A DNA stretch of 25,403 nt from a virus. A program made the translations under genes and the position numbers. How positions within the stretch are numbered: the first letter of the stretch is position 1; each line of letters starts with the position of its first letter. The stretch lies in IMG/VR virus record IMGVR_UViG_3300029309_000123, positions 1-25,403 of that record; one strand, given 5' to 3'. Positions 2,327 to 24,335 of this stretch are shown piece after piece. The notes beneath the pieces were generated by a model that saw nothing but the letters and a program-made list of their open reading frames with translations, was not told the origin of the DNA and made no database searches.

Positions 2327-3556
2327 ATGGAAAATGGAGAGTTAGCCTTACTTAGGACACTTATGGATAAGGAGTTCTATGACAGTAACAAAGGTATACA
2401 TACGCCTGACAAGCTGTTTACTAAAGATGTTCGTAAGGTCAAGAGAACTATAGACTACGCTATGAGTCAGTTCGACAAGGATTTAAACTTCTCAGAGTTA
2501 GAGGGGTTGTTCTTTACACGAGAGACATTGACCACAGCTAACAAAGAGTCTTACAAAAGATTGTTTGATAAGCTCCGGCAAGAAAAACCCATGAACCAAG
2601 AGGTAGCTCAAGAAGTTATGTCTAACCTATTCCAACAAGTAGTAGGTGAAGAGGTAGCTAACTTAGGCTTTGACTACGTGAATGGTGAGAAGAATACACT
2701 GGAGCCACTACGTAACATAATCACAGACTATCAAGATAACTTCCTACCCAACTTAAAAGTAGAGTGGGGTGACATATCTATTGACAATCTGTTGGTGGCT
2801 AATGAGATACAATCTAAGTGGCAGTTTAACATACCGTCACTGCAGCGCAAGGTAGAGGGCATATCAGGTGGACATCTAGTTTTAGTGGGTGCTAGACCTA
2901 ACACTGGTAAGACATCCTTCCACGCCTCTCTGATTGCCTCTGAGCGTGGATTTGCTAGACAGGGTGCTAAGTGTATCGTCCTGTGTAACGAAGAGGACTA
3001 CACTCGTGTAGGTGCTAGGTATCTCAGTGCTGCATCTAACATGCCTATGGAAGAGATCAAGGACAACTACGCTCTTGCGTCCACAAGGTACAAGCCAGTG
3101 TACGACAACATACGTATAGTAGACAGCACAGGCAAAGACATGGTGTGGGTTGAGGCTGTAGTAAAGCATCACAATCCTGATATCGTAGTGCTAGATATGG
3201 GTGACAAGTTTGCCAACAAGACAGGTGCAGACTCCCACGTGTATCTCAAAGATGCAGCCATACACGCCAGAAATATAGCCAAGCAGTATGACTGTGCAGT
3301 TATCTGGATGTCTCAGCTATCAGCAGAGGCAGAGGGTAAAATATATGTAGACCAGTCTATGCTTGAGGGTAGTAAGACAGGTAAAGCTGCTGAGTGCGAT
3401 CTGATGATACTGATATCTAAGAACCCACAAGTAGAGGGTGAGTATGAGTCAGACACACAGCGACACTTGAACGTAGCTAAGAATAAACTAAAGGGTGGAT
3501 GGCATGGGGTTGTCCACTGTCAGTTAGATGGAGAGAGAGCAAGGTACTCAGCATGA
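2327..3556 (+). CDS. Replicative DNA helicase, DnaB/T7 gp4 RecA-like fold
   Basis: Hexameric 5'-3' replicative helicase driving fork unwinding with the primase encoded upstream. A roughly 165-residue N-terminal region precedes a RecA-type ATPase core. The Walker A motif is GARPNTGKTS (188-197), the catalytic glutamate region is CNEED (220-224), Walker B is IVVLDMGDK (286-294), motif H3 is IWMSQLS (Q330), and H4 is around NVAKNKLKGG. At 409 residues it lacks a primase domain, so primase and helicase are separate polypeptides here. Its TGA overlaps the ATG of the polymerase gene (ATGA). Confidence 0.88.
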   Translation: MENGELALLRTLMDKEFYDSNKGIHTPDKLFTKDVRKVKRTIDYAMSQFDKDLNFSELEGLFFTRETLTTANKESYKRLFDKLRQEKPMNQEVAQEVMSNLFQQVVGEEVANLGFDYVNGEKNTLEPLRNIITDYQDNFLPNLKVEWGDISIDNLLVANEIQSKWQFNIPSLQRKVEGISGGHLVLVGARPNTGKTSFHASLIASERGFARQGAKCIVLCNEEDYTRVGARYLSAASNMPMEEIKDNYALASTRYKPVYDNIRIVDSTGKDMVWVEAVVKHHNPDIVVLDMGDKFANKTGADSHVYLKDAAIHARNIAKQYDCAVIWMSQLSAEAEGKIYVDQSMLEGSKTGKAAECDLMILISKNPQVEGEYESDTQRHLNVAKNKLKGGWHGVVHCQLDGERARYSA

Positions 3557-5595
3557 GAAGAGTAGTAGATGTAGAGAACTCAATAACTCTACGAGATGGT
3601 AAGATATTCAACGATCCTTACGAGCCAAGCAATACACTTACTGAGGTGGGTGTGCTGTGTTTGGATACAGGAGAGAAAAGACTGTTACCGTTTGACCACA
3701 AAGAAGCCACAGACAAACACAAAAAGAATGACTGTGTTTTACAGAGGATGCTAGACAGCACAACGCTGCTGATAGGACATAACCTACAGTATGATCTAGC
3801 CTGGCTTTGGGCTAATGGCTTCAAGTATGATGGTAATATATATGACACAATGCTTGCAGAATATTTACTTTTACGTGGACAAAAACAACCACTAAGTTTG
3901 GAGCAGTGTGCTATCAGACGTAACTTACAGTATAAGAAAGACGATACGCTTAAAGCGTACTACAAGAAAGGATACAACACAAATGAGATACCACTTGACG
4001 AACTCAGCCATTATCTTGAGTATGATTTGCTTACCACTGGCGAGTTGTACAAAGCCACTGAAGCTGACTTTTCAACCCCAGCCTCCGCTTCCCTTCGAGC
4101 AGTCAAAGACGTTACCTTTAGAACCTGCAAAGTCCTCACAAGAATGTCAATGGCAGGAATCAGGGTGGATAGACATGCCCTCGAACACGTCCGTGATAGA
4201 TTCGAGCGAGAGCGAAAAGAAATACTTGATAGATTGCAAACCACCACACGAGAGTTGATGGGTGGCACACCTATTAATCTCAACTCACCAGAGCAGATGT
4301 CGTGGGTAATTTTTAGCCGTAAGCCTAATGATAAAAAAGAATGGGTAGACATCTTTGAATACGTGGACGACAAAGGTTTTAAGGATGCAGTAAAAAAGAA
4401 TAGCAAGATGATCTTTAAAACAAAAGCAAGCACTTGCCCTACTTGTAATGGTGGTGGCAAAGTACACAAAACAAGAAAGGATGGTACACTACATAAGATA
4501 CCAAACAAATGCAAAGCCTGTGAAGCTAGGGGTTTCCTACTCACAGCAACAAACGAAATGGCAGGGCTTGGGTTCTTTCCACCAAGTAAGAAGTGGGTCA
4601 GTGCCAATGGCTTCGGTGTAGGTAAAACAAACTTAGATGCATTGATAGCCACAGCTAAAAACAACAACATGGAGAAAGCAAATGAGTTCCTTCAAGACCT
4701 TAAAAGGCTTAGTGCTATTAGCAGTTATCTTAGTAGTTTTGTGGATGGTATTATCACCAACTGTAAAACAAGTGACAAACTACACATCAACCTTACCCAG
4801 CATATCACCAGTACAGGTAGATTTTCTGGACGAAATCCCAACATGCAAAACATGCCCAGAGGAGGAACCTTCCCAATAAAACGTGTGTTTATCTCAAGAT
4901 GGGAGGGTGGCAAAATTATTGAGTCTGACTTTGCCCAACTTGAGTTCAGAACGGCTGCGTTCTTAGCACAGGACAAGACAGCAATGCACGAGATAGATAC
5001 AGGGTTTGATGTACACTCCTACACTGCAAAGGTTATCAGTGACGCAGGACAACCTACAACTAGGCAGGAAGCAAAGGCACACACCTTCGCTCCTCTCTTT
5101 GGTGCTACTGGATATGGTAGATCAAAAGCAGAAGCTGCGTACTACAAAGAGTTTGTTGAGAAGTACAAAGGCATAGCTAGTTGGCATACCAGATTAGGTA
5201 ACGAGGCTGTTAACGAGGGTAAGATAACCAACGTCAGTGGTAGACAGTACGCATTTCCTGATGTCATACGTAGAGAGAACGGCACTGTGTCGCACTTTAC
5301 TATGATTAAGAATTATCCTGTGCAAGGCTTCGCTACAGGAGATGTCGTACCAGTTGTACTGATAGAACTTGACCGTTTGTTACAGCCTATGCACTCATGT
5401 TTAGTCAACAGTGTCCACGATAGTATGGTAATTGACACACACCCTGATGAAATAGATGATGTGTTAAGTATAATTAGTTTGATTAACACTAATCTAAATG
5501 CTATGATTCAAAAAGAATATAATATAAAAGTTAACGTACCTTTGTTATTAGAATCAAAAATAGGAGACAACTGGCTTGACACAAAGGACGTTTAA
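3553..5595 (+). CDS. Family A DNA polymerase with inserted DnaJ-type zinc motif
   Basis: Replicative DNA polymerase of 680 residues with proofreading. I chose the ATG at 3553 (MRRVVDVEN) over an in-frame ATG 54 bases upstream because it overlaps the helicase stop as ATGA and places the exonuclease DxE motif at the N-terminus. Exonuclease residues are D6 and E8 (VDVE), N77...D81 (GHNLQYD) and Y154...D158. A zinc-type insert follows with C295, C298, C320 and C323 (CPTCNGGG, CKACEARGF), like two DnaJ CxxCxGxG units. Polymerase motif A is IESDFAQLEFR (D459), motif B RQEAKAHTFAPLFG (R504, K508, F512), and motif C NSVHDS (H622, D623). The Pol I Tyr766 position is Phe516. This layout is reported for HMO-2011-type phages. 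Confidence 0.93.
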   Translation: MRRVVDVENSITLRDGKIFNDPYEPSNTLTEVGVLCLDTGEKRLLPFDHKEATDKHKKNDCVLQRMLDSTTLLIGHNLQYDLAWLWANGFKYDGNIYDTMLAEYLLLRGQKQPLSLEQCAIRRNLQYKKDDTLKAYYKKGYNTNEIPLDELSHYLEYDLLTTGELYKATEADFSTPASASLRAVKDVTFRTCKVLTRMSMAGIRVDRHALEHVRDRFERERKEILDRLQTTTRELMGGTPINLNSPEQMSWVIFSRKPNDKKEWVDIFEYVDDKGFKDAVKKNSKMIFKTKASTCPTCNGGGKVHKTRKDGTLHKIPNKCKACEARGFLLTATNEMAGLGFFPPSKKWVSANGFGVGKTNLDALIATAKNNNMEKANEFLQDLKRLSAISSYLSSFVDGIITNCKTSDKLHINLTQHITSTGRFSGRNPNMQNMPRGGTFPIKRVFISRWEGGKIIESDFAQLEFRTAAFLAQDKTAMHEIDTGFDVHSYTAKVISDAGQPTTRQEAKAHTFAPLFGATGYGRSKAEAAYYKEFVEKYKGIASWHTRLGNEAVNEGKITNVSGRQYAFPDVIRRENGTVSHFTMIKNYPVQGFATGDVVPVVLIELDRLLQPMHSCLVNSVHDSMVIDTHPDEIDDVLSIISLINTNLNAMIQKEYNIKVNVPLLLESKIGDNWLDTKDV

Positions 5596-11350: not shown

Positions 11351-11385
11351 ATGGTAGCCGTTGACTTAGTGTTGGCGGCTACTAT
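11351..11385. terminator. Probable bidirectional terminator between convergent blocks
   Basis: Inverted repeat ATGGTAGCCG (11351-11360) and CGGCTACTAT (11376-11385) forms a 10-bp stem with one G-T pair and a 15-nt loop. Read on the minus strand it is followed by TTTATTTTAG, a good U-rich tail. On the plus strand it is followed by GGTTTTG, a weaker one. It sits exactly where the two gene blocks converge, and the stop codon of the minus-strand 1229-aa gene (11382-11384) lies inside the right arm. Confidence 0.7.
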
Positions 11386-14300
11386 GGTTTTGCAGCATTC
11401 TTATACAGAGATAGTATAGCTTTAAACTGGTTTAACTCAGAGGGAGTCATTGTCAGTGGATCTTTCATCTCTAACTTTTCTAGCTCTTCCTCTGTTGCAC
11501 CTTCATCTCGTAGCTGATCTAAACGTATCTTGTGAAACGTCTTCTTAGCATTCTTGTATTGCTCACTGTTACCAGAATAGTTTATGGTATCGTATCTCTG
11601 CTTGTTTAATCTGTGATCCTCTGACAACACAGGCATAGCTTGATTAACTGCTGCTCTAGTTTGTTTTAATATTTTATTTACTTCTTGTCTTCTGTAAGTG
11701 TTAGTGCCATTTATAAAGTTCTTATCTGCTAGTAGAACTCTGGCTTTTCTCTCTAGTAAAGGTGACAGGGTTTCGTTAAACAACCTATCGTACATAGCTA
11801 CCTGACTTCTTCTGTTAGCTTTAAATCCTCGTAGCCCTGCCATAGTGTATACTTTTTCTGCAGCAGTTTTAGATGGCACTACTCTTACGCCAAAGATAGA
11901 GGCTAACGGATTAGGATCATACAAGTCACCCTCTCTAGTTGACACACGTAACTTACTAAAATCATTCTCTTCATTAACATCACGGAATATGTCTAGTATA
12001 TTGTCTAGATATCTTGTTGCCTCTAAAGTAAACACTTCCGTACCACTTCTTTTTACTAGCTCCATCTTACCTGTTTCAGGGTCAATGACAGCTTTCTGTC
12101 TTTTGTCTTTGTGTATATCAGTATCACGAATAAACCCTACAGCCCTGTCTATAGTCTGAAAAGGTCTAGTAAAGCCAGCTAAGAAACTACCTGCACGTCT
12201 TTGTAGTTCTGCTGCACCAGCCTCCCCATTTGTTTCATCAAACATCATGTCCAGTATTCTGTACATATCGTTACCAAACTGTATGTCTTTAGCAAACTGA
12301 CCTACACCTATTTGTACGAGCGCGTCTTCTAGTGCTTCAGGTGTAGCTTTAGCAAAGTATGGTATCCCATCTTTCGTGGTAGGATCTGCCTCACCTATAC
12401 CACCAAACTTACCTTGCCTTGCTAACTGGTTAAACAGTCTGCCCATCGCCAAGAACTCAGACATAGGAAAAGCATTCTTTGTATCTATGGTAGTGCCACC
12501 ACCTACGTCTAGTTGTGTAGATTCTAACGCCCTGTCTTGCCTCTCTTGATCCATACGAGCAGCTAAGATTAAACCTGTAGTGCCTACTATCGCACGACTA
12601 AAAGCCTCTGATGTTTTTATGTCTGCTTTACCACGCATGATAGCAGCAGTAGGAGCAATCAAACCTGCAGGACCAACCTGCCACACTGTAGCTATCGTGT
12701 TATTAAAGAACCTACCAAACGGTAGTATAGAACCAAGTACAGGCAAGTTAGATATACTCTCAACAAACTTAGCTGTGCTTCTAATCACAGGAGCTTGCTC
12801 TATAGTTGTGTAGTCTTTAGAAAAAACACTCTTCATTGTGCTGTCCACAGCTAATCCCAACACATCCTCATCTATAGCGTTAAGATTGTATGTTCTCATA
12901 ACTTCAGCTAGACTTACGTTGTTCTTTATTCTTAGCTGTTTGTCTAACTCTGTCATAAACATCTGCGACTTAGTAAAGGTATCCTGCGCCCTAACGCCTG
13001 TCAGTCTAGTCGAGGCATCAACAAACCCCTCTACTGTTTTGTATACTTTACTGTCTGGATTTATGTCAAACTTATCTGCTGATATCTCTACACCAGTACC
13101 ACCAACTGTTTCATGTAGTAAGCTTCTTATATCTTTGTTTTCATCTAAGAACTTCATGTAAGCGTCATGCGTAGTAAACGGATCAGCCAAGTTTCTAAAC
13201 TTGTCTCCCTGTATCTTCCAATACACAGAGCCTATTCTTTGAGCTTCTTTATTACCTGAGACTATTCCATAAGCGTAGAATGCACCACCGTTTAACATGT
13301 CTGCTACCGTAGAGCCTAAGTAATACTGTGACCAACCAAATATGTTAGCTGCAGTTGTAGGCACAGAGGACACAAGTGCTCTACGCCAAACGTTTTGGAA
13401 GTACATTAGTTTCTTTGGTTGTTTTTCTTTACCTAAGAAATAACCAGGAATCCCATCCTCTAATGCATCTCTTATTTGTTTACGTTCTAACGACTGATTA
13501 ATTATATCATTGCCCATGACAACACCAGCGTTAAGCTTGTTCTTAGCTTGAGCAAATATGGATAGCTCTTTACCTAGTCCACTGGAGTATGATGCTATTA
13601 CGTCACTTAGTTTAACTTTAGCTGCTGCGACATCTCCTAAATGTATTCCTGTGGCTTTCTCAAAGTCTTTTGATATAGCAGCAAACTCTTTATCAGGCAT
13701 CACACGTATTACGTCTGTTAGAAAGTCTGATATAAAAGTATCCTTGTTTACTGTAATACCTTTTTTTCTGAGCAATCCTACAAGACCTGTCTCTTTATCT
13801 GGACCTAGAAGTATCTCACCAAGTAAACCCTCTGGCATCATCTGATTACCACGTATCTCTTTACCTGCTTCTACTTTCTTAGCCCAAGACTTGTACCCCT
13901 GACGTATAACCTTAGATGCTTCAAAACCTATAGCTGCATCCACTACACCTTTTGTTGCAAACTTTTGCATAGCCATTTCTTTTTGAGCATCCGCTAGGCT
14001 AGTCTTCTTACCTATCTTACGAGATGTGGTAGCTATGCCAGTGCCAGCCAAGGAGAATGCAGGAGCCATAGCTCCACCTAGTATTGTACTAAGTAACACT
14101 TGTTTTTTGTTTATTGAATCTATAGAGTCATCTACGTTTACGTCTAGGTATATATCCTGTATTGCTATGTCTTGAAATGCGGCAACTGTAGCATCTGCAC
14201 CAAACGTGGCTGCTAACTCTGCTACCCTGCCCTTTTTTAATCTACTTTTTTCAAACTCTTTGAGAGAGCTAAATCCAAGCTTACGAAATGCTTCTGTTCT

Positions 14301-15071
14301 AGTATTGATAGCAGCCTGTTGAAGAGCTAGTTTACCTGCTTTACTTCTAGCTGCACCCTTACCTATCTTAGCAATTACATCATCTTGTGCTTCTTTTATT
14401 GCTTTGTTTATAGCCTTTGAGTTAGCACCCTTACGAATACCCTCTTTGTATGCTCTGTTAGCTGCTTCTTTAATTAGTTTTTTACTAGCAGTTGTCACAC
14501 CTAGTGTGGTTGCTTTACCTATACCACCAGTGAGAAGTCCTAAGTAGTTTGATGGATCTGCAGCAGCAGCAAAGATATAATCTTTTATACCGTCTATTTT
14601 ACCAGATAAAGTTTCTCCTCTGTTAAACAAGTTGCCTAAACTGTCATACAATCTATATGCATCTGCTGCAGCAGCTTTGTCTGCTTCACTGCCCTTACGT
14701 ACAAACTGCACCTCACCTGCAGTTGACAAGGTGTTTGCATTGAACCAGCGCATATGATCTACAAAGTCATTGACTAGCTTAGTGTCATCTTCCATAGTGC
14801 GATAGTCATCGCCTTTGTTTCTAGACATATACTCACGTATAATATTTAAGTTTTCTCTTTTGTAGAAATCCTCTAGTTTTAGTTTCTTGTCAGGAACTTT
14901 ACTGTCAAAGATAACATCTTCGTCCTCTTCCTCTTTGTACGTGCCATCTATAGCACCTTGCACAAGATTAGATATGCTACCTGAGTATACTTTTTTAGGA
15001 GGAACAGTTAAAGCTGTACCTTGATTACCCTCTACTAAATCAAATAAACTACCTGTGTAAACGTCTGCCAT
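11382..15071 (-). CDS. Large putative DNA-ejection/internal virion protein (1229 aa)
   Basis: Last gene of the late block, coupled to the 601-aa gene by TAATG. It is probably a T7 gp16-like ejectosome component. Evidence is size, position after two smaller candidate ejection genes, and several hydrophobic Gly/Ala-rich helices in an otherwise charged protein (about 164-197, 325-350, 560-605, 770-815, 824-840). WRRALVSSVPTTAANIFG (562-579) and LPFGRFFNN (783-791) resemble motifs I associate with large injected phage proteins. A segment VYTGSLFDLVEG (4-15) recurs as VYSGSISNLVQG (28-39). Unlike T7 gp16, no lytic transglycosylase domain is seen; the muralytic domain is in the separate 514-aa protein. 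Function is inferred. Confidence 0.6.
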   Translation of the reverse strand: MADVYTGSLFDLVEGNQGTALTVPPKKVYSGSISNLVQGAIDGTYKEEEDEDVIFDSKVPDKKLKLEDFYKRENLNIIREYMSRNKGDDYRTMEDDTKLVNDFVDHMRWFNANTLSTAGEVQFVRKGSEADKAAAADAYRLYDSLGNLFNRGETLSGKIDGIKDYIFAAAADPSNYLGLLTGGIGKATTLGVTTASKKLIKEAANRAYKEGIRKGANSKAINKAIKEAQDDVIAKIGKGAARSKAGKLALQQAAINTRTEAFRKLGFSSLKEFEKSRLKKGRVAELAATFGADATVAAFQDIAIQDIYLDVNVDDSIDSINKKQVLLSTILGGAMAPAFSLAGTGIATTSRKIGKKTSLADAQKEMAMQKFATKGVVDAAIGFEASKVIRQGYKSWAKKVEAGKEIRGNQMMPEGLLGEILLGPDKETGLVGLLRKKGITVNKDTFISDFLTDVIRVMPDKEFAAISKDFEKATGIHLGDVAAAKVKLSDVIASYSSGLGKELSIFAQAKNKLNAGVVMGNDIINQSLERKQIRDALEDGIPGYFLGKEKQPKKLMYFQNVWRRALVSSVPTTAANIFGWSQYYLGSTVADMLNGGAFYAYGIVSGNKEAQRIGSVYWKIQGDKFRNLADPFTTHDAYMKFLDENKDIRSLLHETVGGTGVEISADKFDINPDSKVYKTVEGFVDASTRLTGVRAQDTFTKSQMFMTELDKQLRIKNNVSLAEVMRTYNLNAIDEDVLGLAVDSTMKSVFSKDYTTIEQAPVIRSTAKFVESISNLPVLGSILPFGRFFNNTIATVWQVGPAGLIAPTAAIMRGKADIKTSEAFSRAIVGTTGLILAARMDQERQDRALESTQLDVGGGTTIDTKNAFPMSEFLAMGRLFNQLARQGKFGGIGEADPTTKDGIPYFAKATPEALEDALVQIGVGQFAKDIQFGNDMYRILDMMFDETNGEAGAAELQRRAGSFLAGFTRPFQTIDRAVGFIRDTDIHKDKRQKAVIDPETGKMELVKRSGTEVFTLEATRYLDNILDIFRDVNEENDFSKLRVSTREGDLYDPNPLASIFGVRVVPSKTAAEKVYTMAGLRGFKANRRSQVAMYDRLFNETLSPLLERKARVLLADKNFINGTNTYRRQEVNKILKQTRAAVNQAMPVLSEDHRLNKQRYDTINYSGNSEQYKNAKKTFHKIRLDQLRDEGATEEELEKLEMKDPLTMTPSELNQFKAILSLYKNAAKP
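14955..15062 (-). repeat. Duplicated N-terminal motif in the 1229-aa protein
   Basis: Residues 4-15 (VYTGSLFDLVEG) and 28-39 (VYSGSISNLVQG) share VYxGSxxxLVxG, 24 residues apart. The conservation of Val, Tyr, Gly-Ser and Leu-Val suggests a repeated short binding motif. Confidence 0.7.
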
Positions 15072-16876
15072 TATAAATCCAATTGTTTTCTTAGTTCTTC
15101 TTCAACTTGTTTCATGACGTAAGGAGTCAATCTGTTCTTAGCTGAAAACCTTTTCCAATAACCCATTAGTTTAGCTTTATCATTCAGTAAACCTTTTTCA
15201 TTTGCATCTGTAATAAAAGTAATTATCGCATTAGTTACAAACTCTTTATTCTTTTCTAGAACTCCGTCTATTACTGCTTGATCTGTAACCAAAGCTTTAG
15301 GTTTATTTGTTATACGATCATTAATGTATACCTTGCCATCTGGAGTTATACTAAAGTTCTGTTGAGCAAAACTTGTTATTCCATATACTGTAATATCTGT
15401 TGGTGCTTCTTCAATTGGCTCTTCTTTTTCTTCGTCAGTTTCTCCTGCCTCTGCTTTTTCTTTTCTTCTTTCTTCTTCTCTTCTTTTTATTGCTCTACCA
15501 GAAAGCCCTCCTTCATTAGAGAAAGCTATAAAATCATCAAGTAAACTTGCTGTATCTTTAGGATCTACTTTAGTCTCTGGTATTACTATTTCAGGATCGT
15601 CATCTCTACGCTCATCTGCTAATGGTGTCATTTGACCACCAAGGGGTGCTGGTGGTAGCACCTCTGTAGTTATCTCTTGACCTGGAAATAAAAAGCTAGG
15701 CTCTGGTATAGCACTTATAGCAGCTTTTATAGTTCCATCATCCTCATACATTGTGTCAAAGTTAAAACCCATTTGAGTTAGTTCTTTTATTTGTTCTTTA
15801 TTATTTGGATCTATTTCTCTTTCTAGTAAACCTCCCTCTGCATTAGGAGTTATAAAAGTAATATTACCTAGCATCTTACCGTCTGCATCAATATTATATT
15901 TTAACGTTATATTACCTTTAACTTCTTCTATCAGCGTACCCATGTCTGCTGCTGTAGCTTTTATCAATGCTTTAGATGTAGCGTTGTTTCCTCCTACACC
16001 TAGTCCATCAGTCACTAACTCAATTAAAGATGGATCTATGTCATAAAGTTCAGGATTAAGATTATCAATAAAAGTTTGACCACCTAGTTTTACATATTTT
16101 TCAATAATAAATGCTTTAGCACGATCTACCACTGCTGTAGTTGCTGGTATTTTACTACCGTCAGGTAGTTCAACATCAGGTAGAAGACTAGCATTTAAGT
16201 ACGCTTTGCTTTTTTCTATATTATTAAGCAATAACTCCATCTCTCTATTAAAGTCTCTCATGCCTTGTTGCACGTCAAACACTCTAGCCTGATCTGTAGT
16301 TAAATATACTGAACTTCTGTCAGGAGCTAGGCTATCGTAAGCATCCTGTCGAGCAAGTTCTATCATGCTAACCCTGTCTTTACCAAATGCTAGTTTAGCT
16401 GCAGTTCTTGTGTCACCAGATGCAAACAACTTTTGTAGTGTGGTTCTATCGTCTTCTAAATCAGTATCTATTTCTCTTTCTAAACCATAAGATCTGCTTA
16501 AAAAATCTTTTACATCACCCTCTTCAAAAAGCTCTGCACCTTCTACCAATGTATCTACCTCTGGCAATGTCATTGTGCCTCTGCCTGTTTTCATAACGTG
16601 CTTTTCCATAGCCTTAACTAAGGTAGCAAGTCCGGCCTCTCCTGAAGATATAGCAGCTTTTATTTGCATGTCGTTAGCGCCTAAGTTTCTAGCTTTACCA
16701 ACAAGCATCATATTACCTGCAACTAATTTTTTACGGTTATTAAATACGGCTCTGGCGTCTTCGTATTCTTTATCTAACAGCTTTTTCTCATCTTCTTGAG
16801 CTTCAAGACGTTCATTTATACCTGTGCTAACTGTGTTAAGAAAGTTAGCTGTAAATGCATTCCAATCAAATCCCAT
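15071..16876 (-). CDS. Putative internal virion/ejection protein (601 aa)
   Basis: A soluble, mainly helical protein lying between the 201-aa and 1229-aa genes, starting one base after the upstream stop (TAA-G-ATG). The N-terminus (MGFDWNAFTANFLNTVSTGI) leads into a charged coiled-coil-like helix (about 20-50). The middle is mixed helix and strand. A Lys/Arg/Glu-rich disordered linker spans about 464-494 (REEERRKEKAEAGETDEEKE), then a small C-terminal domain follows. There is no signal peptide, membrane span or enzyme motif. By size and order it could correspond to T7 gp15, but I see no sequence motif that proves it. Confidence 0.5.
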   Translation of the reverse strand: MGFDWNAFTANFLNTVSTGINERLEAQEDEKKLLDKEYEDARAVFNNRKKLVAGNMMLVGKARNLGANDMQIKAAISSGEAGLATLVKAMEKHVMKTGRGTMTLPEVDTLVEGAELFEEGDVKDFLSRSYGLEREIDTDLEDDRTTLQKLFASGDTRTAAKLAFGKDRVSMIELARQDAYDSLAPDRSSVYLTTDQARVFDVQQGMRDFNREMELLLNNIEKSKAYLNASLLPDVELPDGSKIPATTAVVDRAKAFIIEKYVKLGGQTFIDNLNPELYDIDPSLIELVTDGLGVGGNNATSKALIKATAADMGTLIEEVKGNITLKYNIDADGKMLGNITFITPNAEGGLLEREIDPNNKEQIKELTQMGFNFDTMYEDDGTIKAAISAIPEPSFLFPGQEITTEVLPPAPLGGQMTPLADERRDDDPEIVIPETKVDPKDTASLLDDFIAFSNEGGLSGRAIKRREEERRKEKAEAGETDEEKEEPIEEAPTDITVYGITSFAQQNFSITPDGKVYINDRITNKPKALVTDQAVIDGVLEKNKEFVTNAIITFITDANEKGLLNDKAKLMGYWKRFSAKNRLTPYVMKQVEEELRKQLDL

Positions 16877-16877
16877 C

Positions 16878-17483
16878 TTACATACCTCTCCTTGCCATTA
16901 GACCCTGCTCTTGAACAGGTTGCTCTTCGACAAGCTGTAACTCTACTGGTTCAGGCGGCTCATCTTGTACATTTTCTTTTGTTTCTTCCTCTATCTCACC
17001 CTCATCTCTAAGAGTAGCTGCCATTTCTTTTAGTAAAGCAACTCCCTTGTCATCCTCTCCACTTGCCTCTATGCCTTTGTCTATGGCTGTCCTCAACATC
17101 ATTTCTACTTTCTGTTGTTCTTTTTCGTTTCTAGCTTCTTGAGGATCAATATTAGCGTATCTAAAATCTATCTCGTATGTTTTTGCTACGGCTGCTAAGA
17201 ACTCAGTCAACACAGGTGCAACAATAAGACCTACATCTAAGTTGTGTATACCCATCATAACTGATGACATATACATAGTCTTGACGATAGGCTCTAACGG
17301 TATGCCCATGTCAACCACAGTCATAACGTCATCTATGATTTCAGGATCACGCAGGTTAGTAAAGTAGTAGGCTAACGCATCATCTACTGTATCTAACTCA
17401 GATGGACGCTCCCACGGTACATCACTAGGTGTAGTGAATAGAGAGTTTCCTGGTATCGGTGCTCCAAAATTTGTTGCTTCCAT
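16878..17483 (-). CDS. 201-aa phage protein with acidic tail
   Basis: A mostly helical protein starting MEATNFGAPIPGNSLFTTPS with a Pro-rich opening (PWERPSEL). A fairly hydrophobic middle (about 60-97: GIPLEPIVKTMYMSSVMMGI and LDVGLIVAPVLTEFLAAVA) is followed by a long Glu-rich tail (160-192) and a basic end, GLMARRGM. This layout recalls small proteins of unknown function in marine phage structural regions. The ribosome site AGGA lies before the ATG, within the nine-base gap after the 147-aa gene. A T7 gp14-like role is possible from position only. Confidence 0.5.
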   Translation of the reverse strand: MEATNFGAPIPGNSLFTTPSDVPWERPSELDTVDDALAYYFTNLRDPEIIDDVMTVVDMGIPLEPIVKTMYMSSVMMGIHNLDVGLIVAPVLTEFLAAVAKTYEIDFRYANIDPQEARNEKEQQKVEMMLRTAIDKGIEASGEDDKGVALLKEMAATLRDEGEIEEETKENVQDEPPEPVELQLVEEQPVQEQGLMARRGM

Positions 17484-17492
17484 TTTCTTTTC

Positions 17493-17936
17493 CTATTTAG
17501 TAAACCCAGCGCCAAAGTATAGTCCTACTATGGCTGATACGATGTGTGTATCTAGTGGTGTAATTACAAAACCTTTAGCCATCTTCCATTGTATAGCTTC
17601 GTCAGGCCCAAACAACCAGTTCATAAAACCGCCAGTTGCTTCTGTATATCCTACATAAACGCTGACATCAGGATACCACACTGCGACTAGTTTTGGCAAG
17701 ACAATAATGCTAAATACTGCACCTAATGCTATTAATCTTCTAGTCCAAGCAAAGTGTTTGTCATCTTTGCCAGCGTTACGTGCTTCAGCTACGGCTTCTT
17801 TTCTAAAGTTAGCACGTTGTAAAAGCATCTTGTTGTTAGCTTCTTTAGCTTTTACAGACTGCCCCCATATGGACATCACCCCACCTAGTACAGTGGAGAA
17901 AAGCATGGTTATTAGTTCTAAAGGTAATCCCATCAT
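17493..17936 (-). CDS. Three-span membrane protein, holin-like candidate
   Basis: A 147-residue protein with probable transmembrane helices at about 4-25 (LPLELITMLFSTVLGGVMSI), 66-87 (RRLIALGAVFSIIVLPKLVA) and 121-144 (ending AIVGLYFGAGFTK), and a charged linker between the first two. Similar membrane proteins recur in marine phage genomes. It directly follows the peptidoglycan hydrolase gene (TAATG overlap), the classic neighbour of a holin, so a role in lysis or in genome ejection through the inner membrane is likely. A second in-frame ATG directly follows the first, so the product may begin at either methionine. Confidence 0.6.
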   Translation of the reverse strand: MMGLPLELITMLFSTVLGGVMSIWGQSVKAKEANNKMLLQRANFRKEAVAEARNAGKDDKHFAWTRRLIALGAVFSIIVLPKLVAVWYPDVSVYVGYTEATGGFMNWLFGPDEAIQWKMAKGFVITPLDTHIVSAIVGLYFGAGFTK

Positions 17937-19480
17937 TATGTGTTCTCATTTACAAATATTGCTAGTTTTATCTTATCCTCGTCTGAAAAAGACTGATAAG
18001 TTTCTCCTGCTCTTTCGCCACCCCTGTAAGTTTTAGTAATTGGTGTGACTTCAGGAACAGTTAAGTTTCTCTCACCTGCCCAACGTTGTATTGCATCATA
18101 ACTGTTCACGCCAATTTTACCATCAACCACAGTTTGAACTGTTCTTTGAGCTTGATACTCATTTCTTAACTGCATCTCTCTTGCTTTTTCTTCTTCTCCT
18201 GCAGCTTCAAGAGCCTCAACTACATTAGCCCATCTTTCTTCAGCCACTGCAGCAGAAGCACCGGGGTTTATTAAGTCGTTTAAAGTATCCGTAGAAAGTT
18301 TAGAGGCTGTTTGACTATTCAATCCGTTCATTTCTAGGTAAGCTAAAGTTATTGGTAGGGTGTATCTGGTATCAAGAGCTAAATCTGGATTTCCTACAAG
18401 ATCAATGTTAATACCTTTAGCCGCTAAACGATCTTGTACGGCTTGATAGTTTCTACGATGTGTAAGTTGAACCAGCCCTCTACCTCTGTAATTACTGCCT
18501 CCATCATAATTTATATCCATTATAGCTAGTCCAAGAGCATTAGAGGGTGTACCACGATTTCTTTTAAGCCTATTTTGTTCTGCTTGTGGTAGAGATGCTA
18601 ATGCAGCATTAACACTTGCATCATTGTACACTTCATAAGCTCTGTTTAAACTATATCCTGTATTTTCTATTATTGGACCGTCATCTCCTACCTCTACTCT
18701 TATTAAACCCAGTGTTAAAGCCTGTTGATATGGATTAGGCACTGCGTTCTTTAAAGCTGTTTCTAAAGCGTCTTGAGAAAAGTTGCCATCTGCATCCGTT
18801 ATGCTAGTATCATTCTCCTCTTGAAAGAAAGCTCTTACTATAGCATCTCCCTCTCCTAATGGATCTCCTACATCTTTAGGACCAACTGGACGTGACATTA
18901 ATCCTATCTCTACATCGGTTGTTGTTGGAGGACCAAGAACACTTTCTTTATCCAATGACTCCTCATCTGTAGGAGGATCTCCTAATTTTTGTAACTCTGC
19001 ACCGTACTGGATATCTTGTACACTTCCCTCTGGTGGTCTTAAATCTAGTTTGTCTAGTATTCTACTTTGTAGTCCATCTATATCCAACGTTGGATCTGGC
19101 TGTCGTAACATACGCATGGGCATTTTAATTATGCCTTGCTTCTCTAGACCATCACGATTAGCACTCAGTATATCTAACACAGTAGATTTATTTATATTGC
19201 TAAATCTAGGAGCGTTGTCCACACGAACCTCTTGAGTAGGGAACTCAGCAGGCTGATAGTATAATGGGTCAGACATATCACTTAAAACACGAGTGGAAGT
19301 AGATACTGGTGTTTCGGCTGATGGTAATTCTTCTGTTTCTATTTGTGTGTTACTTATAACCCTATTGCCAAGACCCATTTGTTGAATGCCTTGTTGCTCT
19401 CGTGCTGCTGCTGCAGTATCGTCCAACTCTGCAAACTTTTCTTTTATAACTGTTGCTACAAAGGTTTCAAAATCTAACAT
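17936..19480 (-). CDS. GH19 chitinase/lysozyme-like peptidoglycan hydrolase, virion-associated or endolysin
   Basis: A 514-residue protein with a long polar N-terminal region (1-245) and a C-terminal hydrolase. The candidate catalytic glutamate is E263 (LIRVEVGDDGP), followed by IIENTGYS (270-277). The diagnostic GH19 segment is YRGRGLVQLTHRRNYQA (331-347), with NPDLALD at 364-370. A possible peptidoglycan-binding repeat lies at about 451-473 (VVDGKIGVNSYDAIQRWAGE). The enzyme would cut the murein glycan strand. The extension and its position among candidate ejection proteins suggest a virion-borne enzyme for DNA entry; adjacency to a holin-like gene suggests endolysin. Ribosome site AGGA precedes the start by nine bases. 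Confidence 0.75.
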   Translation of the reverse strand: MLDFETFVATVIKEKFAELDDTAAAAREQQGIQQMGLGNRVISNTQIETEELPSAETPVSTSTRVLSDMSDPLYYQPAEFPTQEVRVDNAPRFSNINKSTVLDILSANRDGLEKQGIIKMPMRMLRQPDPTLDIDGLQSRILDKLDLRPPEGSVQDIQYGAELQKLGDPPTDEESLDKESVLGPPTTTDVEIGLMSRPVGPKDVGDPLGEGDAIVRAFFQEENDTSITDADGNFSQDALETALKNAVPNPYQQALTLGLIRVEVGDDGPIIENTGYSLNRAYEVYNDASVNAALASLPQAEQNRLKRNRGTPSNALGLAIMDINYDGGSNYRGRGLVQLTHRRNYQAVQDRLAAKGINIDLVGNPDLALDTRYTLPITLAYLEMNGLNSQTASKLSTDTLNDLINPGASAAVAEERWANVVEALEAAGEEEKAREMQLRNEYQAQRTVQTVVDGKIGVNSYDAIQRWAGERNLTVPEVTPITKTYRGGERAGETYQSFSDEDKIKLAIFVNENT

Positions 19481-19511: not shown

Positions 19512-22500
19512 TTAACCGCCTGCGGCAGGTTTACCACCTGCAAAAAGACCTGTACCTGTTCTTGCCATACCGTTAATTATTGTGCCTAAGAAACTTCCTG
19601 CTGCGCCAGCTAAACCAGCGCTAGAACTTGCATCAGCACTAATATTTTGAATAGCTAACTTGTTTTGTCTTTCAAGCTCATTATCTGCTGTCTGCCATGC
19701 GTAGTTCATTAAGTCACGCTCTTGCTGCCACAACTCAGCAATACCTTGTGCTGTTAGATTGTTAGCTGCCATAGCCTCACGCATGTTAGCTTCATTAATG
19801 GATGCGTTGTTTATTGTTGCTATGTTCTGCCTCCACTGTGTGTTAGCTTGCGCTACAACAAGTTGATTCTGTGCGTTAAACATGTCTCGCTGATTCTGTA
19901 TCTCTTGATTAAATCTAGCGATAGCATTTAGTTCACCAACGTTAAACTGGTTCATAGCATTCATCTGTGTATTGTTAAACATATCTACTTGAGAATCTTG
20001 ATTCATCATAAACTGTCTGATCTGATTTTGACTAGCTGCATTGAACTGTGATGCTGCATTAGATGCACCCTGATCACTAAAGATACTTTGTATTGACTCT
20101 TGCGCTTTAAACAACTCCATCTGTTGTAGCTTGTCAATGTTGGATAAGTCTAACTGTAGAAACGCATTGGCTTTTTGTTGCGCTGCTTGTTGCTCGTTAG
20201 ACAGGTTAGTTACATCAACTTGTGTTAGTGCTGCTGCATCCGCTAATAGTTTAGCTTGTGCATTAGTCACATTAGTCAAGTCAAAGGTTTGCACTAGTTC
20301 TGAGTTACGTAACACACGATTCTGATCTGCACTGAACTGCAGGTTAGCTATCTCAGCTATACGTTCTGCACGTATTACATTTACTTGTTGTTCGTTAGTA
20401 AGTTCTTGCCCACGCATGGATGCTTCTATCTGTGCATTAGCTAGTGCAGTCTGTTGACGGTTAGACAAGTTTTCTACTTCAATGTTTAACTTATTACTCA
20501 TGTTAAACAGTCTAACTTGTTGTTCGTTGTTTAGTTCTAGTTCACGTTCTTGTAACTGATTAGATACGTTAAACAGAGATGTTTGTTGTCTGTTGTCTAA
20601 GGCTCTACCTTGCATAGCTGCAGTGGATGTAGCATCCTGTAAGAAAGCTTGTTGTTTACTTGTAGCGTTTAGCATCTCTGTTTCAAATGCCTGTGTGCTT
20701 GTAAGAATAGCTACCTGCTGCTCATTAGTAAGCTCTTGCCCCATCATAGATGCTTTTACTTGTAAGTTAGCCAGCGCAGTTTGTTGTGCGTTTGACAAGT
20801 TGGTAAGATCTACTTCTAGTGCCTGTGTGGATTCTAGTATGGATGCCTGTTGTCTGTTAGTTAAGTTTAAGTTATTTACTTCTGCAAACCTACCTGCATT
20901 TGCTAATGCAATGTTTTGTGACACACTAAGGTTTTGATTTCTTAGACCAGCCCTTAGTTGTGCCTGTGCCAACACAGCCTCTTGTGTATTGCTCAAGTTT
21001 GTTAGCTGTAAGTTAGCATTGTTAATACTGTTTTGCACTGCAGTGGATTGTCTATTAGTTAGGTTTTCTAGCTCAAACCTCTGTGCAGCAGCAGCGTTAG
21101 CTAAAGCTACAGCTTGTTTGTTACGAACATTTTCCATGTCCATAGCTTGAAAGATAGATGCATCAGCCTGTGCTATTGGTATGGCACTCTCCATAGCAGC
21201 CTGTATCATAGCTGCCCCTGCCATAGAACTAGCACCTAAACCTCTAGCGTTCATGACTTCGTTTACTTTACGTAGTGCTCCTGCAGCCCATGCAGGTGTG
21301 CCATCGTTGAAAGAGTCCATAAGTTTTTCTAATTGAAAAGATACTGTAGACTGTGGGCTAACTTCACCTTTAGCAAACTGTGCCTCTAGCTGTTGTGAGA
21401 ATGTAGCAGTCTGTGCTTTTAGTGTAGCTGCTTCGTTTAGTCCACTGAGTGTTTGTCCAGTTACAACAATCTCTTCTGTATTTAGTATGTTGTTTACATC
21501 TACTATTTCATTTGCATCTACAACTGACGCTTGTTCTGCTGTTATGTCAGGTACAAACTCTGTCTGTTTTTGTTGTGCATTTGCTATCTCAGAAAACTCT
21601 GCAGCGTTCTCTACTCGTGTAGCCTCTGCAGTAGCTGTCTGTGTAGGTGGTAATGTGTAATCAACTTGAGGTGTGGCTATAGGTGTATCTGTTGCAAACT
21701 TAGCAGCATCTACTTCTTCTACAGGTTCTGTAATCTGTTGATCTGGAGCTTGTACAATCTCATCAAAGGTAGCTGGATCAGGTAGTTCACCCTCCTGAAT
21801 CTCTCTAGTTATTTTTTGTACTTCTCTTATTTCTTCTAAAGTTTTAGGATCTAAGTCTAACTGAGCCAACTCTTCTGGTGGCATAGTGGCAGCTTTAGCT
21901 ATAGCGTCATCAGACAGTGTGCCTGTCTTGGCTGCAAACTCTTCTAGTGCAGTTCTAACTTTTGCTTGAGACAAGTAGGCATTGTAGATAGCTGCTGCTG
22001 CATCTGTAGCATCCTGTGCCACCTGTGCTTGTTGTCTAGCTACATACTCAACTAAATCCTCTTCAGGGGTTCCTACAGGTGCAGGTGGGTATTTCATATT
22101 TATTTCATCTGGAGACATTCGAGCTAGATAGCCTCGAACTGCCTTAACTGATGGTGAGTTTACTGCATCTGCAAGTGTTGCTTGTGCTGCAATGATATCA
22201 TCTATACTAGCTACTTCACCTGTGCCTTTATCTATAAGTTGACCATTCTCTACTTTAAGTAAAGATACATCTTGTTTAGTTACAAGTGTCTGAGGTGAGC
22301 TTATTGTCTGCGCTAAAGATTCTGCTACACTAGGTATATCAGTAACCTTCATGCGTTCCTGTGCAGCCTGTAAGTCTCCGTAAGTAGTTTCTATGAGAGA
22401 CTGTGCATTCTCCAAGTTTAGTTTTGCTGCATTATACTCGTTTGTTAATCTTGTTTTTTCTGCATTGCTGATTATAGATTCAGAACCTTTAAGCATAGCT

Positions 22501-23876
22501 TTAAGCATATTTACTTTACTTAGTGCGTACTTTTCTTCCCTATGCCGTAAATCTATTTTATAATCTGGGCCTAGCGAAGGTGCAATAATATGATAAAAAC
22601 TTCCTATCTTTTTAAGCTCTAGTTCAGTATTAGATTTTATTGCAGGGTAATCAAACATAATCTGCAAGACTGCGTTCATCTCTGCATCAAGTTTTACTTT
22701 TGGATGATGGACACCATCAGTGCCAGCATTATAGTCGCTATTTAAAACTCCTTGTTTTACTTCCTCTAAATTAGTGTATAAGTTAGACGGATTTGTAAGA
22801 TTGTTAAACGCTTGCTGTGCATCTGTTAATGTTTTCTGTGCATCAGCGTATGCTTGCTGTGCCTGATCTAATTGTGTCTGACCTTGACCAGACATAAATG
22901 TAACACCGGGTTGTTGCTGTTGTTGTGTTGTAGTTAAATCAGTACGTAAAGAAGGATCTAATGGAGTTCCTGTAAGATCTGGCGGTGTGTCAGTTCCTTC
23001 CGTAATTTGTTTTAAATCATCTTCTGTTGTAGTTATTGCACCAGGTGGTGGCGTGGCTGGTCCAACAGGATCTGATACTCCTTGGTAACCTTCAACAAAT
23101 CTGTTTGACGGTAACGAGTCTAATAAAAAATTAGTTCCTGATGTATCTAACCCAACACCAAACAGTTCACCTGCTTCTTGAGCACGTTCTAATGTGTCGT
23201 AGCCACGTAATGTCTGTCCATTTGCATCAACTATGGCAAACGTACCTAAAGCTGTTTCAACTATAGTAGGTCTATCAAATGTTTGACCAACGTTAAAGTA
23301 TTCTATTTGCTCCCCTTGTTCATTAATTTTTCCAATCTGATCTGGGTCAGAAGTTGATTTACTAACCACATTAGTATTAGGAAGTCTGTGTGTTAACGCT
23401 TGACCTGAAGCTGTTTTAGCAGCAAGTTCAATATCAGGAGCAGCCATAATAGCATCCCAATTACGAATGTCTGCATGTACTCCTGTCGTACCATACAAAA
23501 GCTCTCTACCTAAACCACTTTCAACCTTTTCTTTATACGTTGGATCATTCCTATAATCAGGATTATCTTTAGGTTTAATACCTGCAAGAGCAGCAGCTAG
23601 TTCTGCAGTGTTAGGCTTACGTGGTCTAGAAGGATCGTAGGCATATGCAGGATCTACCCAATCTGGTATCTGACCACCAGGGAAAAATCCCATAGACATT
23701 GGCCTACCCTCAATACGATCTCTAGCCATTTCGTTATAACGGCCTAGCATGGATGCAGCAGATGGTGTAGCTGCTACAAAAGCATCCATCATCTCTTTAT
23801 CTACAGGACCATCGTAGCCAAGCTCACTTAGCAGTTGATGTGTTTGTTGATCTGTAAAACCTTTAAACTTAGCCAT
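19512..23876 (-). CDS. Giant hendecad-repeat structural protein (1454 aa)
   Basis: The largest gene in the window, starting directly after the upstream stop (TAAATG). The N-terminal 100 residues look globular (MAKFKGFTDQQTHQLLSELG). A Pro/Thr/Gln-rich linker with a five-Gln run lies at about 260-325. Ala/Gln-rich helical segments fill 330-870. Residues 916-1267 are 16 gapless 22-residue repeats, and 1277-1364 are eight 11-residue repeats rich in Asn, Gln, Phe and Met. The C-terminus is hydrophobic and Gly/Ala-rich (about 1415-1454: GLAGAAGSFLGTIINGMA). I see no cysteine anywhere. It is probably a virion component, either a rod-like fibre or an ejected protein forming a channel through the envelope. 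No family is recognised. Confidence 0.75.
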   Translation of the reverse strand: MAKFKGFTDQQTHQLLSELGYDGPVDKEMMDAFVAATPSAASMLGRYNEMARDRIEGRPMSMGFFPGGQIPDWVDPAYAYDPSRPRKPNTAELAAALAGIKPKDNPDYRNDPTYKEKVESGLGRELLYGTTGVHADIRNWDAIMAAPDIELAAKTASGQALTHRLPNTNVVSKSTSDPDQIGKINEQGEQIEYFNVGQTFDRPTIVETALGTFAIVDANGQTLRGYDTLERAQEAGELFGVGLDTSGTNFLLDSLPSNRFVEGYQGVSDPVGPATPPPGAITTTEDDLKQITEGTDTPPDLTGTPLDPSLRTDLTTTQQQQQPGVTFMSGQGQTQLDQAQQAYADAQKTLTDAQQAFNNLTNPSNLYTNLEEVKQGVLNSDYNAGTDGVHHPKVKLDAEMNAVLQIMFDYPAIKSNTELELKKIGSFYHIIAPSLGPDYKIDLRHREEKYALSKVNMLKAMLKGSESIISNAEKTRLTNEYNAAKLNLENAQSLIETTYGDLQAAQERMKVTDIPSVAESLAQTISSPQTLVTKQDVSLLKVENGQLIDKGTGEVASIDDIIAAQATLADAVNSPSVKAVRGYLARMSPDEINMKYPPAPVGTPEEDLVEYVARQQAQVAQDATDAAAAIYNAYLSQAKVRTALEEFAAKTGTLSDDAIAKAATMPPEELAQLDLDPKTLEEIREVQKITREIQEGELPDPATFDEIVQAPDQQITEPVEEVDAAKFATDTPIATPQVDYTLPPTQTATAEATRVENAAEFSEIANAQQKQTEFVPDITAEQASVVDANEIVDVNNILNTEEIVVTGQTLSGLNEAATLKAQTATFSQQLEAQFAKGEVSPQSTVSFQLEKLMDSFNDGTPAWAAGALRKVNEVMNARGLGASSMAGAAMIQAAMESAIPIAQADASIFQAMDMENVRNKQAVALANAAAAQRFELENLTNRQSTAVQNSINNANLQLTNLSNTQEAVLAQAQLRAGLRNQNLSVSQNIALANAGRFAEVNNLNLTNRQQASILESTQALEVDLTNLSNAQQTALANLQVKASMMGQELTNEQQVAILTSTQAFETEMLNATSKQQAFLQDATSTAAMQGRALDNRQQTSLFNVSNQLQERELELNNEQQVRLFNMSNKLNIEVENLSNRQQTALANAQIEASMRGQELTNEQQVNVIRAERIAEIANLQFSADQNRVLRNSELVQTFDLTNVTNAQAKLLADAAALTQVDVTNLSNEQQAAQQKANAFLQLDLSNIDKLQQMELFKAQESIQSIFSDQGASNAASQFNAASQNQIRQFMMNQDSQVDMFNNTQMNAMNQFNVGELNAIARFNQEIQNQRDMFNAQNQLVVAQANTQWRQNIATINNASINEANMREAMAANNLTAQGIAELWQQERDLMNYAWQTADNELERQNKLAIQNISADASSSAGLAGAAGSFLGTIINGMARTGTGLFAGGKPAAGG
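19785..20048 (-). repeat. Eight tandem 33-bp units (11-residue repeats)
   Basis: Residues 1277-1364 of the 1454-aa protein divide without gaps into eight 11-mers, for example QFNAASQNQIR, MFNNTQMNAMN, QFNVGELNAIA and RFNQEIQNQRD. Position 2 is Phe in six of eight and position 3 is Asn in seven of eight. The period is half that of the adjoining array. Confidence 0.85.
20076..21131 (-). repeat. Sixteen tandem 66-bp units (22-residue repeats)
   Basis: Residues 916-1267 align as 16 consecutive 22-mers with no insertion or deletion, exactly 1056 bp. A typical unit starts NLSNRQQTALANAQ. Position 6 is Gln in all 16 units, position 2 is hydrophobic in all 16, and position 4 is Asn in 12. Units 6-7 and 11-12 are especially similar, 330 bp apart, which suggests growth by duplication of multi-unit blocks. 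The DNA copies are diverged, so selection acts on the protein pattern. Confidence 0.95.
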
Positions 23877-24335
23877 TTATGTCACCATGTATATTATGAA
23901 ACCTAGCATTGCTGCCCCAGTTAGTATTATTAGTATTGAAAGCGTCCAAGTAACTATTGCCTCTTGTATTTCTGCTTTACGATACTCTTGATCTTTCTTT
24001 TGTTTACGTATCTTGCCCTCAGTGGCTATAAGCTCATCCCATGCAGATGGCCCCATGCTAAAACTAATCCAATCTTTTAGCTCTTTTCGCATTGCTTCAG
24101 CTTTTTTCTTAGCTGTAAATATAGCCAAAGCCTCCGCTTCAACAGACTGTCCGTTAAGTGCTTTCCACCACGGAGGGTTTTTATTTTTTTGTTCTGCGTA
24201 GGACAGATCACTCATAGCACCTGCCCATTGGGTCAACTGTCCTGACATATCTTGTAGATCTTTGCCTACTTGAAAGCCTCTCTTTAGCGCATTAAACGCA
24301 ACAGTCGCACCACCAATAATGGTAACTGGGTCCAC
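23877..24335 (-). CDS. 152-aa C-terminally membrane-anchored protein, GTG start
   Basis: The N-terminal part is soluble and amphipathic (MDPVTIIGGATVAFNALKRG), the middle is Lys-rich (AKKKAEAMRKELKDWI; GPSAWDELI), and residues about 126-151 form one transmembrane helix (TWTLSILIILTGAAMLGFII). The start is a GTG preceded by a strong ribosome site, GGGAGAGG (24340-24347, minus strand). Proteins of this layout (NPP..., ...KKKAE..R.EL, GP.AWDEL) are familiar from marine phages but have no assigned function. A role at the host membrane in lysis or ejection is inferred. Confidence 0.6.
   Translation of the reverse strand: MDPVTIIGGATVAFNALKRGFQVGKDLQDMSGQLTQWAGAMSDLSYAEQKNKNPPWWKALNGQSVEAEALAIFTAKKKAEAMRKELKDWISFSMGPSAWDELIATEGKIRKQKKDQEYRKAEIQEAIVTWTLSILIILTGAAMLGFIIYMVT

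Follow-up and report, generated by a model that had tools for sequence, protein, structure and literature searches.

Podophage ejection genes cluster as gp14-gp15-gp16, with products of about 200, 430-980 and 610-1340 aa (PMC8954989). The same small, medium and very large cassette order unites T7 gp14/gp15/gp16, the ejection proteins of N4 and DEV, and the locus analyzed here; by contrast, a large hendecad array is not among the features given for the T7, N4 or DEV proteins in the accessible portions of their published descriptions. Hendecads are found in protein H of phiX174, a decameric tube of hendecads and heptads in which 18 of the 23 inward positions are N, Q or R (PMC7354561). In phage LUZ24, gp53-gp52-gp51-gp50 (313, 126, 505 and 1055 aa) are each annotated as a phage particle protein. 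Phages of the HMO-2011 type are reported to be dominant and widely distributed in the sea (PMC9038755). Their proteins that carry DNA across the host envelope are so far without names, and our search of the open-access literature found no virion proteome for this phage type.

Here, we explored a window of 25,403 nucleotides, namely, bases 1-25403 of the 36,265-base virus record IMGVR_UViG_3300029309_000123, in which gene content and order match those of Puniceispirillum phage HMO-2011, with a B12-dependent ribonucleotide reductase and PolA on one strand and the tail and structural genes on the other. Its late operon encodes a 1454-aa protein with a long 22-residue repeat, an orthologue of HMO-2011 gp25 (ADW08438.1, 706 aa, annotated as hypothetical), CHOED_013 and phiM6_25. 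We propose, with a probability of roughly one half, that this is a virion protein, the first of an ejection cassette, and that its hendecad array forms a parallel bundle or tube for genome delivery, the length of which is set by whole repeat units.

The late block and its counterparts

The genes of the block considered here are the following:

11382-15071, minus strand: 1229-aa protein, the final gene of the late block, in the slot of T7 gp16 and LUZ24 gp50
15071-16876, minus strand: 601-aa protein, in the tunnel-protein slot (T7 gp15, LUZ24 gp51) by position and size
16878-17483, minus strand: 201-aa protein (p201), second conserved component of the putative cassette, with a homologue downstream in relatives
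17936-19480, minus strand: 514-aa protein carrying a GH19/endolysin-like domain; its gene lies downstream of the repeat gene and upstream of that for the ~200-aa protein
19512-23876, minus strand: repeat protein, 1454 aa, a late virion-type protein of an HMO-2011-type podophage according to synteny and tblastn
23877-24335, minus strand: 152-aa protein, immediately upstream of the repeat gene, with a strongly hydrophobic C-terminal helix (predicted)

Downstream of the repeat gene, the order of products is 514 (GH19-like), 147, 201, 601 and 1229 aa, after which the late operon ends; upstream in the record lie genes matching tail-fibre, minor-tail, amidase and tail proteins. In every named relative with annotated genes, the repeat gene opens a block of about 200, 600 and 1200 aa that closes the late operon (201/601/1229 aa in the window and 165/503/1129 in HMO-2011). 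Of the 97 loci long enough to test, 96 carry a homologue of p201 on the strand of the repeat gene and downstream of it. Relatives of the repeat protein are encoded by roseophages, pelagiphages, Rhizobium and Sinorhizobium phages, Vibrio phage CHOED, Aeromonas phage MQM1 and Pseudoalteromonas phage Slicky01, and a single alignment-based pattern scan of IMG/VR recovered at least 541 stretches encoding them. HMO-2011 gp25 and its orthologues (in RCA roseophages, pelagiphages HTVC103P/104P/115P/033P, phiM6, CHOED, MQM1 and Slicky01) represent the same gene in the same slot and share with the window protein the pre-repeat domain, the 22-residue units and the C-terminal hendecads, but they are shorter, have 2-9 contiguous units instead of 16, differ in their N-termini and tails, and are annotated only as hypothetical.

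The LUZ24 gp53-50 block has the same gene order, sizes and place at the end of the late operon as the block in the window. The fourth gene in the Slicky01 block encodes a homologue of LUZ24 gp50 (tblastn, 6e-4; hhalign, 1.4e-6) that also matches KPP25 (tblastn, 1e-15). The 1229-aa protein of the window has no detectable similarity to LUZ24 gp50, so that the link runs via Slicky01 and the shared gene order. Between the repeat protein and LUZ24 gp53, hhalign gives an insignificant match, with a probability not above 5.6%; gp53 lacks 22-residue units, its points of likeness being a GSSRAGVAEG motif and a Gly-rich tail. Profiles of T7 gp8 and gp11-gp16 gave no homology to the repeat protein or its three partners (hhalign probability, at most 0.7%), the 601-aa protein showed no detectable homology, and sequence-profile searches of the PDB with the same four proteins yielded chance-level matches only. 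By hydropathy, the repeat protein has no clear transmembrane segment, let alone multiple transmembrane helices as in T7 gp14, and p201 has one marginal segment. Searches of Pfam and PHROG with the window repeat protein returned zero matches; the family is without a name in both databases. A weak match to a ‘DNA transfer protein’ was found in BFVD (E 6e-3). A PHROG ‘DNA ejection protein’ match was not accepted as direct evidence, as it is confined to the C-terminal Peptidase_S74 domain of the CRP-738 orthologue.

Pfam and PHROG searches detected no counterpart of the peptidoglycan hydrolase domain of the T7-type large member, with neither a hydrolase nor a transglycosylase domain in the 1229-aa protein or the homologues tested; a separate GH19-like gene is present within the block. 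The 514-aa protein may belong to the virion as a peptidoglycan hydrolase instead of being a plain endolysin. At the corresponding place, HMO-2011 has only a 188-base gap. The 152-aa protein may be holin-like, tail-associated or an unrecognized membrane part of the ejection system.

The 22-residue repeat and its register

The repeat protein consists of the following parts, all on the minus strand:

23742-23876, minus strand: N-terminal part of about 45 aa, FKGF...LGYDGP...FxxxxP
21132-21344, minus strand: conserved pre-repeat domain, residues about 845-915, TPAWAAGAxRxVxxxMxARGLGxSSMAxAAxxQAxMESxxPIAQ
20076-21131, minus strand: 16 gapless 22-residue units, residues 916-1267, with Gln6 in all 16 and no proline
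19677-20075, minus strand: C-terminal hendecad helix (predicted), residues 1268-1400, in which the 11-residue register runs on from the 22-mers
19539-19631, minus strand: Gly/Ala-rich hydrophobic tail, residues about 1416-1446

The N-terminus resembles the motif FKxFKP...GYxGxMxxFxxYLxxNP that is common to many relatives; in a separate group of relatives (several loci, L042-L059), a basic, K/R-rich N-terminus followed by DYxxGGRV replaces the FKxFKP motif. The columns of the pre-repeat domain are among the most conserved of the family. The C-terminal tail differs among relatives, and in the orthologues from CRP-3 and CRP-738, a Peptidase_S74 chaperone domain is located C-terminal to the same helical protein.

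A first-pass annotation of the window had recognized 16 units of 22 residues without an indel, with an invariant Gln6, a hydrophobic position 2 and a usual Asn4, and its coordinates and counts proved correct: position 2 is hydrophobic throughout (L11/V2/A/F/I) and Asn4 is found in 12 of the 16 units. The hydrophobic positions that it listed hold up in part, given that the strong ones family-wide are 2, 10, 19 (missed at first) and 21, and position 13 holds small residues. The extent of the periodic region was underestimated as well, in that in-register hendecads continue to about residue 1400. Autocorrelation under BLOSUM62 peaks at lags of 22, 44, 66, 88 and 110 residues, reaching 0.72-0.77 at 22, 44, 66 and 110 and 0.40 at 88, against a maximum of 0.015 over every lag in 1000 shuffles. 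Different units within one protein share 27% identity, compared with 75% for the same unit across orthologues, and TRF detects no tandem array in the DNA of this region; thus, the repeat is ancient, exists at the protein level and is kept by selection on the protein. Units 6 (20736-20801, minus strand) and 11 (20406-20471, minus strand) are alike at 17 of 22 residues, which, together with an autocorrelation at 110 residues as high as that at 22, suggests that a five-unit block was duplicated long ago. Proline is absent from residues 901-1449 of the window protein, compared with 52 prolines in residues 1-820.

A position-specific matrix, for which the units were the training set, served to recognize units in homologues. 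In each of the 20 distinct close homologues, the contiguous run is exactly 16 units long, and the remaining relatives have 2-9, most commonly 6, with no run of 10-15. The contiguous unit counts are thus bimodal, with 16 in one clade and 2-9 elsewhere. Gln6 is kept in 299 of the 320 units (93%) of the 20 distinct 16-unit proteins, with variation in units 4, 13 and 14, and in 597 of the 697 distinct units (86%) of the family as a whole, and the 22-residue register is retained among the homologues, as the first-pass annotation expected. These 697 units (15,334 residues) contain no proline at any position. Among 116 distinct homologues, all 60 non-zero gaps between successive recognized units are multiples of 11, 36 of them odd, a count to be read with the caveat that a matrix with internal 11-residue similarity favors offsets of 11 too and that the homologues are non-independent. 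Most odd multiples are located where the 22-mers meet the C-terminal segment, or beyond that point, and, therefore, mainly show that the 22-mers and the 11-mers that follow share one register.

Helical seams and possible hinges

The hendecad (11/3) periodicity claimed for the units is borne out by hydrophobicity, which has a period of 11 with z = 23, versus z of about 0 for 7, 10, 12, 15 and 18; among the periods tested, only 11 and its multiples were detected. In the 121 residues past the last unit, the period of 11 persists at z > 3 in 88 of 110 homologues, and a period of 7 appears in one. Projected on an 11/3 helical wheel, the array displays two hydrophobic seams, separated by about 164 degrees (one at phases 2, 6 and 10, the other at phase 8), and, between the seams, one uncharged face rich in N/Q/S/T and one charged face. 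In the window protein, charged residues make up 19 of 128 (15%) on the former face (phases 3, 7, 11 and 4) and 36 of 96 (38%) on the latter (phases 1, 5 and 9), with a Fisher p of 1.4e-4 that is only descriptive because the face boundaries were picked after viewing the family profile. The two-seam hydropathy harmonic (163.6 degrees) exceeds the one-seam harmonic (98.2 degrees), and in a plain Fourier analysis of hydropathy, the 22/8 and 22/10 harmonics stand above 22/6; 22/10 corresponds to the two-seam helix as its second harmonic, and the 22/8 term is without an explanation. With two seams, a helix would pack against neighbors on either side, forming a wall or tube of helices instead of a minimal thin coil.

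AlphaFold2 was run on two different family members, with 54 and 57 aligned sequences. Both models consist of helices only, at low confidence (pLDDT 61.4 and 64.0, pTM 0.23 and 0.28), which is lowest in the 22-mer block and better in the C-terminal hendecads. The predicted absence of beta strands speaks against a beta-solenoid and, along with the units being free of proline, favors the helical fold that had been expected for the array. With its register also retained in homologues, the array withstood both refutation tests set in the first-pass annotation. A PDB fold search gave no match. In both members, helix breaks within the 22-mer block fall mostly at unit positions 20-3, and the C-terminal hendecad helix (454-543 of the modelled fragment) is left unbroken. 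The unit borders also carry a potential capping box, S/T/D/N3-x-x-Q/E6, which is present in 79% of units compared with 0.9% at the +11 position. The initial proposal that Gln6 forms a polar core layer in a single coiled-coil seam is unsupported or at least unproven, given that the two-seam harmonic predominates and that Gln6 fits the capping box too; this residue may serve in capping, as a polar layer of the core, or in both ways. Likewise, a single 50 nm helix of 352 residues is possible, but the capping box and the predicted breaks at unit borders, as well as the two-faced hydrophobicity, leave a continuous rod, about 53 nm for 16 fully extended units, unproven. The lack of proline, the hydrophobic positions 21 and 2, and phase coherence favor a continuous helix, whereas the capping box and the AlphaFold2 models favor potential hinges; on balance, helix continuity across units appears likely.

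Candidate roles of the array

The ejection reading builds on the repeat, its hendecad period, the lack of proline, the conserved unit number, the two polar faces between the seams and the operon context. The N-terminal part and the PAWAAG...ARGL domain would anchor or organize the protein, and the C-terminal third (residues about 885-1410), as a hendecad alpha-helical array, would assemble in parallel with its own copies into a bundle or tube. Packaged in the head and ejected, such a tube could guide or enclose DNA, or other ejected proteins, across the cell envelope, as the H tube of phiX174 does, with its length fixed by the count of whole 22-residue units. The likeness to H (PDB 4JPP) includes alpha-helical structure, 11-residue repeats, an amide-rich polar face and genome delivery and concerns only how the two proteins might work, given that profile searches over all PDB sequences did not return H; unlike the array, H changes to heptads after three hendecads, forms a 17 nm tube and belongs to a single-stranded DNA phage. 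Position and annotation support the ejection-cassette role and, among the options raised in the first-pass annotation, trans-envelope ejection best fits the cassette order, the ~200-aa partner and the LUZ24 block.

A rather unlikely alternative is an external trimer serving as fibre, needle or tail plug, in which a thin three-stranded hendecad coiled coil would project from the tail, or plug it, and carry exchangeable C-terminal tips. The repeat gene directly follows tail-fibre and minor-tail genes, and in N4, a tail plug is encoded next to the ejection trio (PMC12633501). Furthermore, the CRP-3 and CRP-738 orthologues end in Peptidase_S74, suggestive of trimers. The S74 chaperone domain is known from trimeric fibres. 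An extended rod of 53-77 nm, moreover, equals or exceeds the typical podophage head, so that the protein would need folding inside the head. The S74 argument for an external fibre is, however, weakened, and the ejection role supported, by S74 C-termini on proteins in the first slot of injection cassettes: pSal_026 of Salmonella phage pSal-SNUABM-01, annotated as a DNA injection protein, and AH02_11 of Pseudomonas phage AH02, which precedes a P22-like injection translocase. Both resemble the present family in the slot, in the S74 end shared with CRP-3 and CRP-738, in a Gly-Ser-Ser type motif and in a Gly-rich segment, but lack 22-residue units, and the window protein, conversely, lacks an S74 domain (Pfam search). 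Two seams also exceed the need of a thin trimer, linkage to the ~200-aa gene is tight, and the tails of most relatives lack receptor-binding domains, the window protein ending in a Gly/Ala-rich segment.

In another alternative, each unit would form a separate helix of ~16 residues and a 6-residue linker, the helices packing antiparallel as an alpha-solenoid or core scaffold with Gln6 as N3 of the capping box. The frequency of the capping box in units relative to the +11 position, the breaks in both modelled members and the low confidence in the block agree with such segmentation, which we nevertheless consider unlikely: the supposed linkers, too, are free of proline, and their positions 21 and 2 are hydrophobic in 66% and 86% of cases and share the phase of hendecad positions 10 and 13; the hydrophobic pattern recurs every 11 residues, not just every 22; and the register carries on, 11 residues at a time, through a helix left unbroken by AlphaFold2. 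An internal scaffold or molecular ruler (for instance, a tape-measure-like rod or a core) that stays behind on ejection and makes no contact with DNA in transfer would account for the strictly constant unit number among close relatives, and the PHROG families matched by the S74-bearing relatives are labelled virion structural or head and packaging. Nonetheless, this role is very improbable, given that tape-measure proteins belong to long-tailed phages and the HMO-2011 type is short-tailed (PMC6918029), and that 2-16 units occur among phages with similar gene blocks.

A more elaborate form of the ejection tube, which at present is speculative and distinctly unlikely, would be a switchable, length-coded one: in the head, the units would fold back as short helices at the capping boxes, and on ejection, they would straighten into a continuous hendecad helix. 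Many copies would then form the tube, with Gln/Asn rings in the lumen every 3.3 nm, near the pitch of B-DNA. If so, the principle of phiX174 H would also apply to a group of double-stranded-DNA podophages that ranks among the most common in the ocean. More generally, if the repeat gene opens an ejection cassette, functional candidates become available for four unnamed virion proteins, and the countable repeat would open to testing the long-standing question of whether the length of an ejection conduit matches the envelope width or the host.

Outside the late block, the PolA-type DNA polymerase (3499-5595, plus strand) matches a DnaJ central (CXXCXGXG) domain in the stretch that separates the exonuclease part from the polymerase part, as in the HMO-2011 annotation.
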